A stretch of 64,000 nt of DNA from SAR202 cluster bacterium bin16 (GTDB taxonomy: Bacteria > Chloroflexota > Dehalococcoidia > Lucifugimonadales > Australimonadaceae), in the NCBI GenBank assembly GCA_002238425.1, contig MPMJ01000015.1:1-64000 (forward strand). The letters run 5' to 3'. Numbering within the stretch: the first letter of the stretch is position 1; each line of letters begins with the position of its first letter. The notes beneath the pieces are model-generated. The model was not told the origin of the DNA. It saw nothing but the letters and a program-made list of their open reading frames with translations, and searched no databases. Position numbers and translations under genes: made by a program. Positions 1,519 through 46,762 of the stretch are shown in pieces.

Positions 1519-1643
1519 GACCAAGAGTGTCAACGGGGGGTGTGATGACATTCTTGGTCTGGCTTCCAGGAGTGGAGCGCGGGCCTGCTTTGACATTCTT
1601 GGTCTCCATTCAAGAGGCGTTTCCGAGGCCGTGGCCTGCTTCC
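1519..1643. repeat. 14-bp repeat cluster downstream of ATPase copy 1
   Basis: Three copies of one 14-mer occur: GACCAAGAGTGTCA at 1519-1532, and its reverse-complement form TGACATTCTTGGTC at 1546-1559 and 1591-1604. The first and second could form a hairpin with a 13-base loop. A 17-bp block GGCCGTGGCCTGCTTCC at 1627-1643 follows. The same arrangement, with slightly changed repeats, lies downstream of ATPase copy 2 (43460-43585). The cluster lies beyond the 3' end of the ATPase gene and could be a terminator, a binding site or the end of a mobile unit. Confidence 0.7.
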
Positions 1644-1665
1644 CACAACCAAGGAACCAACAATC

Positions 1666-3192
1666 TCATGCGTTTACAACTTCATCGGGCGTTTCGGGTG
1701 TCTCATCCTGATGCAAAGGGTTGCGCTGGGGGAGCGACCAGTACCATGCTCCCGCGCCGTTTGAGCCGTCGGGAATGCTGACGCGGAATGCCCTGACGTT
1801 ACAAAGCGCGCGGGCGCGGACGAGGGTGGAACGGGATATGCCAATCATGGCAGCCTCGCGCTCGATCTCAGTGGCGGGACGCGGGCCATCTTGGAGAGCG
1901 CGCACGAGGAGGGACTGCGCCGCGCGGGTCTTCGCGCCGTCGTTGGGGCGGGGTCCGATCAGCGCCTTCATGTGGGCAGGGAAGACGGGTTTGCGCCAGG
2001 CGACGGTGAAGGCATCCGATGGGGGAAGGACGAAGGGGATGGCGGGGGCGTCGTCGCTCATGGCGGGCCGGAGGGGGATGAGGAAGCGGCGTTCCCCGGG
2101 TTCGACAACAGCGGTAGTGAAGACGACGGAGGCCTGTGCGAGGCGGCGTTGCATGGCGGTGACGGCTCGGGGGTAGCCGGGCGCGGGGTTGTGGGTGAGT
2201 GCAATCACGGCGGCGCCGGTGTGAGCAGCGAGGGCCCTGAGCATGCCGAGGATGGTGGCAGGCTGGGCGCGGTGCATCGAGGCTAAGTCCTCCGCCTGGT
2301 CGACAATGAGCAAGGCAGCGCTTCCGGCTTCGATGAGGTTGGCGAGGCGTCCCATGACGTGATTGAGGCTCGGCCATGGCGCCGCCAGTCTGGGTGCGGC
2401 GACCGTTGGTTCCTCGAACGTGAAGAGCTGCTGGGGGCGTCCCGAGCCAGAAGTATGCCGGGGAGCGGGCCGCTCCTCGTCGTCCCAGTCGTCCTCCTCG
2501 GCATCGTCCGGCTCGTCCGTGTCCTCGGCGGGCGGTTCGTCCGGGTAGTAGTCGATGGGGAGCGTGGTTGAGAGGAGGTCGGCGAGGTAGATGCGGTCGA
2601 GGTCCGCGCCGAACAGGCGGAGGGTGGGCAGGATGTCGGCCCTGGGGTTGCCGTTGAGCGGAGCGAGGACGACGGGCGCTGCGGGGAACGGGGTGTCCGG
2701 CTGATCGGGCGCGGGGGCGCCGCGTGAGACGCGTGCGGCGATGTCCAGGGCGATGGAGGTCTTGCCGGACGAGGGGTACCCGGCGATAAGGGTGAGCTTG
2801 CCGAGGGGGATGCGGTTGGGCCAGAGCCAATCAGGAGGTTGCTGAATGAGGAAGTTGAATGGCTGGAGCCCTGCCTCCTGCGCGCCGGACGAGGTGAAGA
2901 GGTGCGATTCCGGCAGGAGGCCGCGCCTCGCCAAGGCGTTCAGGATGCGGCGCTTCGGGCAGCGCGTGCATTCGAACGAGAAGCCGTAGCCGTGCTCGTA
3001 GCGGATGGTAAGTGTGGGCACTTCGGCGTTGTTATGGGAGGGACAGTGGACCTTGTAGCCGTCTGCACACGAGCAGCCGGAGACTCCGCACCTGAGGGCG
3101 TGCTTGAGCCGGAAGCCGTACTCCCTCTCCTCCGGTGAGAGTTCTTCGGGCGAGATGCGACGGACGGGCGCTGGCGGGGGTTGGGTAGTCAT
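1666..3192 (-). CDS. Zinc-finger RecA-like (AAA_25/RepA-type) ATPase, copy 1
   Basis: A 508-residue protein. The N-terminal part carries a Cys/His cluster (C35, C40, C42, C50, H53, C75, C78; includes CPSHNN and CTRC), resembling the zinc ribbons of primases. A RecA-fold ATPase follows with Walker A GYPSSGKT at residues 138-145 and a Walker B-like ALLIVDQAED near residue 300. An acidic Asp/Glu-rich stretch lies between. The C-terminal 70 residues look like a winged helix (ATEIEREAAMIGISRSTLVR). AAA_25/RepA-like ATPases of this kind are known from plasmids, phages and integrated elements as replicative helicases, but no Toprim or polymerase domain is seen. The ATG at 3192 is chosen because MTTQP is conserved in copy 2 (43616-45166); no clear Shine-Dalgarno is present. 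The DNA-helicase role is inferred. Confidence 0.7.
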   Translation of the reverse strand: MTTQPPPAPVRRISPEELSPEEREYGFRLKHALRCGVSGCSCADGYKVHCPSHNNAEVPTLTIRYEHGYGFSFECTRCPKRRILNALARRGLLPESHLFTSSGAQEAGLQPFNFLIQQPPDWLWPNRIPLGKLTLIAGYPSSGKTSIALDIAARVSRGAPAPDQPDTPFPAAPVVLAPLNGNPRADILPTLRLFGADLDRIYLADLLSTTLPIDYYPDEPPAEDTDEPDDAEEDDWDDEERPAPRHTSGSGRPQQLFTFEEPTVAAPRLAAPWPSLNHVMGRLANLIEAGSAALLIVDQAEDLASMHRAQPATILGMLRALAAHTGAAVIALTHNPAPGYPRAVTAMQRRLAQASVVFTTAVVEPGERRFLIPLRPAMSDDAPAIPFVLPPSDAFTVAWRKPVFPAHMKALIGPRPNDGAKTRAAQSLLVRALQDGPRPATEIEREAAMIGISRSTLVRARALCNVRAFRVSIPDGSNGAGAWYWSLPQRNPLHQDETPETPDEVVNA

Positions 3193-3251
3193 GAGGACAT
3201 GGTAGGGAGGGGTGGGTTGGGGGTGCAACGGGCGCGTGTCACAAAATCAAC
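3193..3251 (-). promoter_or_regulatory. Conserved 59-bp leader of ATPase copy 1
   Basis: The 59 bases upstream of the start codon closely match the 59 bases upstream of copy 2 (45167-45225), ending in the shared GTGTCACA-rich block (GGGCGCGTGTCACA). Similarity stops abruptly beyond 3251. Conservation outside coding sequence implies a promoter, operator or element end. Confidence 0.6.
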
Positions 3252-3468: not shown

Positions 3469-4275
3469 GTGGCCCACCCTCCCAAAGACAAGTCAATAGA
3501 ACGCCTGCGAAGCATGCGGAATACAATTGAAGAATTGCTGCACTTGCCGAGATTCTCACCTGAGTATGAGAGGTGGCGCAGGAATACTTCTATAGCGATA
3601 GCCAATACTTTTCGAGATGAACCTCATTATACTGAAGAATTCAACCGAATCGAATATACTTCTAAAGTCGCCTACTTTGGCATGCCCGACCAAATCGACC
3701 AGAGGGCCTACGAAGAGGGGCTAGGGTTCGCAGCTGCGATGCTTGATTCAATGATTGATGAGATCAAGGAGTATTGGGTGCAAGACCATGATATTCCAGC
3801 CTCCAATACTTCGGAAGCTGGGTTGATTCTCACAAATAAAGTCTTCGTGGTACATGGCAAAGATGATGGCACTAAGGAGACTGTTGCTCGGTTTCTAACG
3901 AAGCTAGGTTTAGACCCAGTAATTCTCCATGAACAGCCCAACCAAGGGCGTACGATAGTGGAAAAATTCGAGCAATATGCCAGTGTAGGCTTCGCCGTCG
4001 TATTGCTCACCCCTGATGATCTCTGTCAGCACCCCGATGATTCTGAGGGTTCACGCTATCGCGCTAGGCAGAACGTGATCCTTGAGTTGGGATTCTTCCT
4101 AGGAAAACTGGGCCGGAACAGGACTTTTGTCCTGCGGAAAGACAATGTAGAGATACCCTCCGACTATGATGGAGTGCTGTATACCCCAATCGACGACAGA
4201 GGGGCTTGGAGAATGCAGTTGGTGCGGGAAATCAAGGAAGCAGGAATCGAGGTGGACGCGAATTTGGCGTTGTAG
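3469..4275 (+). CDS. TIR-like nucleotide-binding protein (PF10137 / CAP12-type)
   Basis: A 268-residue protein. Residues 1-120 are an uncharacterised helical region. From residue 124 there is a TIR-like domain (KVFVVHGKDDGTKE, then VVLLTPDD), with RQNVILELGFFLGKL around 200-214. The Glu in this last motif (E206) is the expected catalytic residue for NAD+ cleavage. The family (Pfam TIR-like PF10137) includes effectors of CBASS and Pycsar antiphage systems. No cyclase or other partner gene is adjacent, so it may act alone or its trigger may lie elsewhere. Base composition is clearly lower in GC than the neighbours, suggesting transfer. It is divergent from ATPase copy 1. The GTG start is supported by AGGAGGA. 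Confidence 0.8.
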   Translation: MAHPPKDKSIERLRSMRNTIEELLHLPRFSPEYERWRRNTSIAIANTFRDEPHYTEEFNRIEYTSKVAYFGMPDQIDQRAYEEGLGFAAAMLDSMIDEIKEYWVQDHDIPASNTSEAGLILTNKVFVVHGKDDGTKETVARFLTKLGLDPVILHEQPNQGRTIVEKFEQYASVGFAVVLLTPDDLCQHPDDSEGSRYRARQNVILELGFFLGKLGRNRTFVLRKDNVEIPSDYDGVLYTPIDDRGAWRMQLVREIKEAGIEVDANLAL

Positions 4276-25210: not shown

Positions 25211-25236
25211 GGGCACCCACGAGGGATGCCCCTACA
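25211..25236. repeat. Dispersed repeat A
   Basis: GGGCACCCACGAGGGATGCC then CCTACA, between the ThDP gene and the cupin gene. It has one base difference from the 1415 copy. Confidence 0.75.
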
Positions 25237-25240
25237 CGTC

Positions 25241-43459: not shown

Positions 43460-43585
43460 GAACAAGAATGTCAGCCGGCACTGCGATGAGATCCTTGTTC
43501 CCCCGTTCTACGAGTGGCGGGGGAGTCCGTTCTGACATTCTTGTTCCGGTTTTGACAGACATTTTCATGGCCGTGGCCTGCTTCC
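43460..43585. repeat. 14-bp repeat cluster downstream of ATPase copy 2
   Basis: GAACAAGAATGTCA at 43460-43473, a degenerate ATCCTTGTTC at 43491-43500, and TGACATTCTTGTTC at 43533-43546 reproduce the orientation and order of the copy 1 cluster (1519-1604). The 17-bp block at 43569-43585 is identical to 1627-1643. CCGGC arms flank the first repeat and extend the palindrome. Confidence 0.7.
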
Positions 43586-43615
43586 TGCGCCTGAGGCAAC
43601 AACAATCTCATGCGT

Positions 43616-45166
43616 TTACAAGTTCGGCGGCGCGTCGTGTTCGGCGTCGTGTTCGGCGTGGGTGTCCGGGATCGACCAGTACCACGCGCCCGGACCGCTC
43701 GGGACTCCCGGCGTGCTGACGCGGAAAGCCTTGACGTTGCAGAGCACGCGGGCGCGGACGAGGGTGGACCTGGATATGCCAAGCATGGCGGCTTCGCGCT
43801 CGACCTGAGCGGCGGGTCGAGGGCCGTCTGCGAGGGCGCGCATGAGGAGGGACCGGGCGGCGCGTGTCCTCGCTCCTTGATCACGGTTGGGGTCGGCGAG
43901 GGCGTTGATGTGCGCAGGGAAGACGGGTTTGCGCCAGGCGACGGCGACGGCGTCGGTGGACGGAAGGACGTAGGGGATGGCGGGGGCGTCGTCGCTCATG
44001 GCGGGGCGGAGGGGTATGAGGAAGCGGCGGCCGCCGGGTTCCACGACGGCGGTGGTGAAGACGACGGATGCCTGAGCGAGCCTGCGCTGCATGGCGGCGA
44101 CGGCGCGGGGGTAGTTGGGCGCGGGGTTGTGGGTGAGGGCGACGACGGCTGCGCCGGAGCGCGCGGCGAGGGCCTTGAGCATTCCCAGGACGGTCGCCGG
44201 TTGAGCGCGGTGCATGGAAGCGAGGTCCTCGACCTGGTCGACGATCAACAGGGCGGCGCTTCCGGCCTCAATGAGGCTGGCGAGCCGCCTCATCACCTTG
44301 TTGAGGCCAGGCCACGGGGCGGTGAAGTCCGTCGCAGGGTCCGACGGCGGCTTCCAGGGAAGCGGGGGCGGAACCCTGACGCCGACCGGACGGCGGCGTG
44401 GAACGCGTATCTCATTGCCGTCGTTGTCGAACAGGTACTCCTCCTCGTCCTCGTCGTCCCGGTCATCATCGTCGTAGCGGGGGTCGTCCTCGTCGTCGTC
44501 GTTGGGCGGGTCGTCGGGGTAGTAGTCGATCGGGTGGGTGGGGGAGAGGAGGTCTGCGAGGTAGATGCGTCCGAGTTCCGCTCCGAAGAGGCGGAGGACG
44601 GGGAGGACGTCGGACTTCGGGTTGCCGTTGAGGAGGGCGAGGACGACGGGGGCGTAAGGGAAGAGGGCGTCCGGCTGGTCGGGGGCTGCCGCGCCGCGCG
44701 AGGCGCGGGCGGCGATATCGAGCGCGATGGAGGTCTTGCCGGAGGAGGGGTACCCGGCGATGAGGGTGAGCTTGCCGAGGGGGATGCGGTTTGGCCAGAG
44801 CCAGTCGGTCGGTTGCTGGATGAGGAGGTTGAGGGGTTGGAGTCCGGCTTCCTGAGCGCCGGAGGAGGAGTAGAGGTGCGTTCGGGGCATGAGACCGCGC
44901 CTGGCGAGGGCGTCCAGCACCTTTGCGAAGGGGCAGCGGGTGCACTCGAACGAGACGCCGTGTTTCGGGTTCCAGGTGACGCTGAGGGTGGGGACGTCGG
45001 GGTTGTCGTGGGAGGGGCAGTGGAACCTGCCGGGGTTTTCGCACGAGCAGCCGGGGACGCCGCAGCGGAGGGCGGTCTTGAGGCGCTCGACGTAGGCGCC
45101 GTCCTGCGGCGGGAGCATGTCGGGGGTGGCGTAGCCTTCGGGCACGGGAGCGGGTTGTGTAGTCAT
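43616..45166 (-). CDS. Zinc-finger RecA-like (AAA_25/RepA-type) ATPase, copy 2
   Basis: A 516-residue paralogue of the protein at 1666-3192. All zinc-cluster residues sit at identical positions (C35, C40, C42, C50, H53, C75, C78), as does Walker A (GYPSSGKT, 138-145). Residues 100-150 differ at only four positions. The acidic middle (EDDPRYDDDDRDDEDEEE) and the region after it are most variable. The C-terminal winged-helix segment (AAQVEREAAMLGISRSTLVR) is kept. Conservation with divergence suggests both copies are or were functional. A replicative helicase/primase-accessory role is inferred from the family; neither copy has a recognisable integrase or transposase beside it. Confidence 0.7.
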   Translation of the reverse strand: MTTQPAPVPEGYATPDMLPPQDGAYVERLKTALRCGVPGCSCENPGRFHCPSHDNPDVPTLSVTWNPKHGVSFECTRCPFAKVLDALARRGLMPRTHLYSSSGAQEAGLQPLNLLIQQPTDWLWPNRIPLGKLTLIAGYPSSGKTSIALDIAARASRGAAAPDQPDALFPYAPVVLALLNGNPKSDVLPVLRLFGAELGRIYLADLLSPTHPIDYYPDDPPNDDDEDDPRYDDDDRDDEDEEEYLFDNDGNEIRVPRRRPVGVRVPPPLPWKPPSDPATDFTAPWPGLNKVMRRLASLIEAGSAALLIVDQVEDLASMHRAQPATVLGMLKALAARSGAAVVALTHNPAPNYPRAVAAMQRRLAQASVVFTTAVVEPGGRRFLIPLRPAMSDDAPAIPYVLPSTDAVAVAWRKPVFPAHINALADPNRDQGARTRAARSLLMRALADGPRPAAQVEREAAMLGISRSTLVRARVLCNVKAFRVSTPGVPSGPGAWYWSIPDTHAEHDAEHDAPPNL

Positions 45167-45225
45167 GGGGACATGGTAGGGAGGGGTGCGTTGACCACGC
45201 AACGGGCGCGTGTCACATATTCAAC
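45167..45225 (-). promoter_or_regulatory. Conserved 59-bp leader of ATPase copy 2
   Basis: It aligns over its whole length with 3193-3251, including ACATGGTAGGGAGGGGTG and GGGCGCGTGTCACA. Sequence beyond 45225 is unrelated to that beyond 3251. Confidence 0.6.
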
Positions 45226-45269
45226 GGGCGGGGAGGATGGGGGGGGAAAGGGATGGGAGCGGGGGACAA

Positions 45270-45355
45270 GGGCACCCACAAGGGATGCCCCTACACTGGG
45301 CATCCTCACCCGCCGCCGGGACGGCACCCTCTCCCAAGAGGAGAGGGGATCAGGG
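45270..45355. repeat. Dispersed repeat A plus hairpin repeat C
   Basis: Repeat A at 45270-45295 is followed by a CCCTCTCCC...GAGAGGGG hairpin near 45328-45350. The gap between ATPase copy 2 and the membrane protein gene contains only these. Confidence 0.7.
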
Positions 45356-46597: not shown

Positions 46598-46678
46598 TGA
46601 GGGCTGTTCCAAGATGCGTCGGCGTGGTGCCTTTTCACAGGAATGGCGGGTGGGGGCGCGGGGATGACGCGGGGGCAA

Positions 46679-46762
46679 GGGCACCCACAAGGGATGCCCC
46701 ACACCGGGCACCGTCACCCGCCGCCGGCGCGGCACGCTGGGTTCCCGTTTTCACGGGAACTC
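46679..46762. repeat. Dispersed repeat A plus GC hairpin D
   Basis: Repeat A at 46679-46704 has lost one T relative to the others. TTCCCGTTTTCACGGGAA follows at 46741-46758. The gap 46539-46773 contains the promoter above and these repeats. Confidence 0.65.

Follow-up and report, generated by a model that had tools for sequence, protein, structure and literature searches.

Dispersed chromosomal units of a SAR202 bacterium carry a RecA-like ATPase and end repeats that vary together

Can a chromosomal unit that codes for a single ATPase, with no transposase or integrase, be a mobile element? This question is raised by two similar units in the first 64,000 nucleotides of contig MPMJ01000015.1 of SAR202 cluster bacterium bin16, the stretch that was analyzed as a whole and is called the window below. 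Each unit consists of a 59-bp leader, a gene for a RecA-like ATPase and a right end of about 150 bp with four short repeats. We consider it probable that both are full-length representatives of a dispersed family that has been mobile in its history, and that the ATPase binds the repeats at the end of its own element in an initiator-like manner. This reading is built on the precise ends, the many copies, the internal deletions that keep both ends, the species-specific presence, the purifying selection on the ATPase, and the co-variation of its recognition helix with the repeats.

In a BLASTN analysis of the window, the segment from 3251 to 1519 aligned with the segment from 45225 to 43460, both on the minus strand, with 1331 identities in 1776 positions (75%). 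The two similar units proposed in a first-pass annotation, which had been made from the sequence alone, are thus real. As it had also suggested, the similarity ends abruptly: no alignment extended beyond either end, except for an unrelated dispersed repeat of about 35 bp, so that the continuation that would have indicated ordinary gene duplication was not seen. The features of the two units are as follows.

1519..3251, minus strand: element copy 1, full length, 1.73 kb, with the left end at 3251 and the right end at 1519
3193..3251, minus strand: copy 1 left end with the 59-bp leader GTGACACGCGCCCGTTGCA...TACCATGTCCTCATG, promoter-like
1666..3192, minus strand: copy 1 ATPase gene (P0001, 508 amino acids), with a predicted N-terminal Cys/His domain, RecA-like AAA_25 core and C-terminal winged helix
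1647..1668, minus strand: copy 1 repeat R1, long-spaced, TGAGATTGTTGGTTCCTTGGTT; includes part of the block that is identical between the copies
1616..1644, minus strand: copy 1 conserved core GGGAAGCAGGCCACGGCCTCGGAAACGCC
1591..1604, minus strand: copy 1 repeat R2, GACCAAGAATGTCA
1566..1574, minus strand: copy 1 conserved motif CACTCCTGG (ACTCsT, present in all but a few copies)
1546..1559, minus strand: copy 1 repeat R3, GACCAAGAATGTCA
1519..1532, minus strand: copy 1 terminal repeat R4, TGACACTCTTGGTC
43460..45225, minus strand: element copy 2, full length, 1.77 kb, with the left end at 45225 and the right end at 43460
45167..45225, minus strand: copy 2 left end with the 59-bp leader
43616..45166, minus strand: copy 2 ATPase gene (P0002, 516 amino acids)
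43589..43610, minus strand: copy 2 repeat R1
43558..43586, minus strand: copy 2 conserved core
43533..43546, minus strand: copy 2 repeat R2, GAACAAGAATGTCA
43487..43500, minus strand: copy 2 repeat R3, GAACAAGGATCTCA
43460..43473, minus strand: copy 2 terminal repeat R4, TGACATTCTTGTTC

Several details of the first-pass annotation could be refined. The leaders are indeed of the same length, and because the units lie on the minus strand, they are located at the high-coordinate ends. In copy 1, a −10-like TACCAT is located 6 bp ahead of the ATG, a position that suggests a leaderless ATPase mRNA. The ATPases are 69–70% identical and share the Cys/His ligands and the Walker A motif GYPSSGKTS, as had been noticed. 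The identical block exists, with a length of 22 bp rather than 17 bp (CAACAATCTCATGCGTTTACAA, 1658-1679); it reaches into the 3' end of the ATPase gene and belongs to the first repeat. The repeats, described as a cluster, are four in number, two inverted and two direct, with the order R1-core-R2-ACTCsT-R3-R4 in every copy. R1 and R4 point in the opposite direction to R2 and R3, and the spacing is conserved. The 14-mer is bipartite (TTGRNNNYCTTRNTC), and its letters differ slightly between the window copies (TGACAYTCTTGGTC in copy 1 versus TGACATTCTTGTTC in copy 2).

To what extent these units are dispersed was assessed in the genome of the window itself (G000, 3.2 Mb, 101 contigs) and five other genomes of the genus, one of which (G001) is a single contig. 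Matches to the ATPase, from full length to fragments, were found seven times in G000 and four to six times in each of four congeners; none was found in G001. The pattern of the right-end core occurred 21 times in G000, 26 in G003, 22 in G004, 15 in G002, and 23 in G005, whereas G001 had no match. As the reversed control pattern yielded no match either, 15 to 26 occurrences per genome in five genomes cannot be ascribed to chance. Several copies with sharp ends, which the first-pass annotation had named as support for mobility, were thus present. Most of these loci were retrieved for comparison, and 76 core copies were examined for the content between their ends. The spans from the left end to the core fall into two classes, one of about 1.76–1.82 kb with the ATPase and a short one, mostly 288–312 bp, without it. 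Gene-less relatives of about 300 bp that share both ends make up the majority of the copies. In none of the 76 core copies, including the short class, was a gene other than the ATPase found between the left and the right end, in agreement with the earlier remark that no transposase or integrase is recognizable there. Some of the short units derive from the ATPase unit by internal deletion, for example L052, in which the leader is fused straight to the right end, and others retain the leader motif CACCCCTCCCTACCATG. The larger short class has the same promoter-like left end, followed by a short interior of another kind, which contains two small palindromes resembling hairpins.

The distribution of the copies among the species suggests that the units have moved. 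Searches with joined flanks, together with alignment, revealed that the L052/L116 unit occupies its site in G000 and G003, whereas this site is empty in G002, G004, and G005. At the L050 site, according to the joined-flank searches, G005 has an ATPase copy where G000 and G003 have short ones. The copy 1 junction is present only in G000, and nothing corresponding to this copy precedes the same SDR gene in G003, G004, and G005; the copy 2 junction is present only in G000 and G003. The orthologous positions in all relatives that the first-pass annotation had named as a sign of gene duplication were therefore not observed. Both the variation between empty and filled sites and the non-orthologous placement of copies 1 and 2 support movement.

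The variable bases of the repeats differ among elements and agree inside each element. For the first half-site, the within-element identity was 0.71–0.77, compared with 0.40–0.48 in shuffles among elements, and for the second half-site the values were 0.85 and 0.62, respectively. None of 2000 shuffles attained the observed identity, which was also true for same-strand pairs. The ATPase is the candidate for a factor that recognizes the repeats of its own element. Pfam AAA_25 was the sole family above the gathering score (57.1 and 42.5 bits versus a cut-off of 27; E 2e-15), and Walker A (GYPSSGKTS), Walker B (LLIVDQ), and the N-terminal cysteines and histidine are conserved across the copies. 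The ratio of nonsynonymous to synonymous substitution rates between ATPase copies was 0.19–0.44, and, judged by sequence comparison, the protein is under purifying selection. An AlphaFold model with a mean predicted local distance difference test score of 65 (mostly 70–87 in the folded domains) comprises an N-terminal Cys/His domain, a RecA-like core, and a well-scored C-terminal winged helix, the third helix of which spans residues 454–463. The closest structures in the PDB are KaiC and RecA, and the closest viral models are phage AAA and primase proteins.

For the 17 copies that retain the C-terminus, the similarity of helix 3 plus wing was compared with the similarity of the terminal repeat. 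The two were correlated (r=0.59, p=0.0002), whereas the adjacent ATPase segment, used as a control, gave r=0.17 (p=0.05). With one copy per recognition type, the correlation was r=0.33 (p=0.03, n=10). For example, GISRRTLFRAR..GIRSTRIGAS is paired with TGGCACCCTTAATC in two species, and GISRSTLVRAR is paired with TGACAYTCTTG. The notion that the ATPase reads the repeats is based chiefly on this co-variation of recognition helix and repeat.

We envisage that a promoter-like left end drives the single ATPase gene and that the product would bind, as a sequence-specific, initiator-like protein, the four bipartite repeats around the conserved core of the right end. It may act on its own end as well as on short copies with matching repeats, and could open the DNA or load replication factors, much like a Rep protein on iterons. 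New copies might then arise from that replication intermediate or via an unlinked recombinase. A more far-reaching possibility, which we advance tentatively and regard as somewhat doubtful, is that the units represent a class of self-mobilizing elements without transposase or integrase, in which the RecA-like ATPase, of the phage replication type, binds its own variable end repeats, starts copying, and spreads itself as well as the gene-less copies. Repeat and recognition helix would diverge jointly, so that co-resident families avoid cross-reaction, comparable to plasmid incompatibility.

Several observations weigh against the view that these are mobile units with a repeat-binding ATPase. Target-site duplications, predicted by the first-pass annotation, were not found: in 66 copies, flanking direct repeats matched the shuffled expectation. 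Thus, of the proposed element, the dispersed unit with sharp ends and multiple copies holds up and the target-site duplications do not. Terminal inverted repeats are likewise lacking, the ends TGACAC... and ...CTTNNTC being unrelated, and the copies are divergent, with no near-identical pair seen within one genome. Without target-site duplications and near-identical pairs, recent transposition is not established, and self-contained mobility is unproven. The presence/absence data stem largely from draft metagenome-assembled genomes (MAGs), there are many more repeat types than intact ATPases, and the co-variation is the one source from which we infer binding. In addition, many short copies occupy orthologous places in several species, and a crude gene finder placed a co-oriented gene downstream of 53 of 61 scored short copies, typically 0–150 bp from R4, which fits a kept regulatory role. 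Copies at orthologous places are barely more alike than random pairs, though their downstream flanks are 89% identical, and repeat types often switch blockwise (e.g., L102/L150 and L103/L120/L149); this could reflect block replacement by gene conversion, re-insertion at favored places, or fast co-evolution.

It is improbable, in our judgment, that the short elements are kept as upstream regulatory cassettes, with a promoter and an operator array, that the ATPases are the regulators reading these operators, and that the dispersal is ancient. The co-oriented downstream genes, the promoter-like left end, and the many orthologous placements are what such cassettes would display, but the wholesale switches of repeat type at orthologous places, the variable presence, the lack of any copy in G001, the inconsistent gene proximity of the full ATPase copies, and the excess of repeat types over ATPases are not. 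That the repeats form the stems of a structured RNA with which the ATPase works is highly improbable. Paired arms do co-vary, with 235 cells changed on both sides versus 121 in shuffles; however, G-U pairs were not more common than A-C pairs in the putative stems (38 versus 49, and 34 versus 49), the same-strand arms R1/R4 and R2/R3 agree as well, and R1:R3 agreement is as good as R1:R2. The combination of unfavored G-U pairs and same-strand agreement fits protein sites on duplex DNA better than RNA helices. Moreover, the right ends of six loci had no Rfam match at E<=5, the folding z-scores of the two window copies were only about −2, and RNAalifold found little common structure.

Rather unlikely, though more plausible than these two, is a non-autonomous nature of the elements, in which an ordinary transposase or integrase encoded at another place in the genome moves them in trans, with the ATPase as cargo or as an accessory protein for target choice, similar to MuB, TnsC, or IstB. 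No copy encodes a transposase between its ends, the left end starts with TG and multiple binding repeats are clustered at one end, reminiscent of Mu- and Tn7-like ends, and there are weak matches of P0002 to TniB (E 0.026) and of the ATPase C-terminus to a 'DNA transposition protein' PHROG (E 0.0007). Yet neither a matching CA terminus nor an inverted repeat is present at the right end, target-site duplications were not found, the RecA/AAA_25-like fold is closest to phage replication ATPases, and the ATPase gene, the single conserved one, is under purifying selection.

The reading of a dispersed family with an initiator-like ATPase can be compared with known systems. By analogy, the element would work like an initiator-plus-repeats module that has become dispersed. 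Such Rep-ori modules include those of iteron plasmids, P4 alpha, and SaPI Rep. In the phage and satellite modules, too, the ATPase has a C-terminal winged helix and the repeat array close to it varies with the recognition domain, and the match of a winged-helix initiator to nearby repeats, typical of iteron replicons, was found here as a correlation (r=0.59) involving a predicted winged helix. The present element differs in the RecA-like AAA_25 core (instead of SF3/AAA+), the lack of a primase domain, the chromosomal location of a unit of about 1.75 kb without integrase, and the many dispersed gene-less copies. The ATPase is related to phage primase-helicase proteins, without having a primase domain: it resembles the AAA_25 primase-helicases and replicative ATPases in sequence and fold, and its Cys/His N-terminus recalls a primase zinc finger, but it is the sole gene of a dispersed unit, with no phage genes around. 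With regard to mobile DNA, short internal-deletion copies that retain both ends of a longer coding copy are reminiscent of miniature inverted-repeat transposable elements (MITEs) and their autonomous insertion sequences, from which the absence of terminal inverted repeats, target duplications, and a transposase sets the family apart. Many short extragenic repeats tied to a single-gene family are also known for REP/RAYT; here, however, an HUH tyrosine transposase is lacking, the arrays are 300 bp long with element-specific 14-mers, and the ATPase copies carry the same ends. The asymmetric ends without inverted repeats or target duplications resemble IS91/Helitron-like elements, from which the family differs in lacking an HUH Rep protein. 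There is no integrase inside the unit and the insertion sites are varied, unlike in integrative satellites or phage islands, and an IS110-like bridge RNA is not indicated, as no copy has a recombinase and RNA pairing is unsupported. On the features tested, the family therefore belongs neither to the insertion sequences nor to the MITEs or integrative satellites, whereas multiple dispersed copies, common ends, and presence/absence variation agree with a broad definition of transposable elements.

A covariance model of the right end found it confined to the genus, apart from single short-contig matches in G057 and G076. These contigs are about 93–98% identical to loci of the genus and are probably misbinned. 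On one contig assigned to another family of the order (L224, G057:C83), the element and its flanks are 95–98% identical to G000, and this contig is probably misbinned or reflects a very recent transfer. Full ATPase relatives elsewhere in the phylum are distant; one in another genus (L029) is about 30% identical and has, downstream of it, a shorter hairpin that encloses a similar core. All named relatives are MAGs of Chloroflexota/Dehalococcoidia, and the bin names suggest that the hosts are sponge-associated. No relative was found in viral contigs, and phages and plasmids yielded only weak matches to the ATPase core, so that a phage or plasmid home was rejected. A link to a prophage in G001 was also discarded, since the left-end-like motif there has three mismatches and no coherent prophage is present. 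No matching description was found in the open-access literature, and the family is apparently undescribed. In sponge-symbiont Chloroflexota, it accounts for a prominent class of repeats that is apparently unannotated. If the ATPase is the mobilizing factor, a replication-type protein would spread DNA around a bacterial chromosome without a known transposition enzyme, which would add a mechanism for mobile elements. Even otherwise, 17 recognition helices with their presumed cognate 14-mers form a clean natural series of protein-DNA pairs with many changes of specificity.

By itself, the left-end motif is even more common, with 33 occurrences in G000, and is also found at the head of units whose repeat arrays are different and unrelated, indicating that the family belongs to a larger group. 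In G000, the units L165-L182 (e.g., L178, L169, L173, and L176) have the same left end and very different arrays (TGAGCAGAAATGAGCAG..., GGCTCAAAATGGCTCACTTT...); several are visibly located upstream of co-oriented genes, and they are probably sister families with other repeat readers. The short units L166, L181, and L182 contain an apparently open frame of 62 codons, which runs from a possibly leaderless ATG through the core (EAGHGLV) to a conserved ACTCGTAA/ACTCCTGA stop. Another subfamily of the ATPase, which shares about 47% identity with copy 1, is found at an orthologous place in L057 (G000:C87) and L068 (G004:C17), both of which precede the same amidohydrolase-like gene, the reading frame of which crosses the conserved core (EQGRGLLD).

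In the window, copy 1 is adjoined by a gene (3469-4275, plus strand) with a CAP12/Pycsar-type TIR effector domain (Pfam E 1e-38), and no sequence in the other genomes of the genus matches the flank on this side. The dispersed repeat of about 35 bp (TGTAGGGGCATCCCTTGTGGGTGCCCTT) is located at 1413-1447, 45268-45302, 403-432, 46677-46713, and 25211-25237, and has many occurrences in the window and in the relatives.
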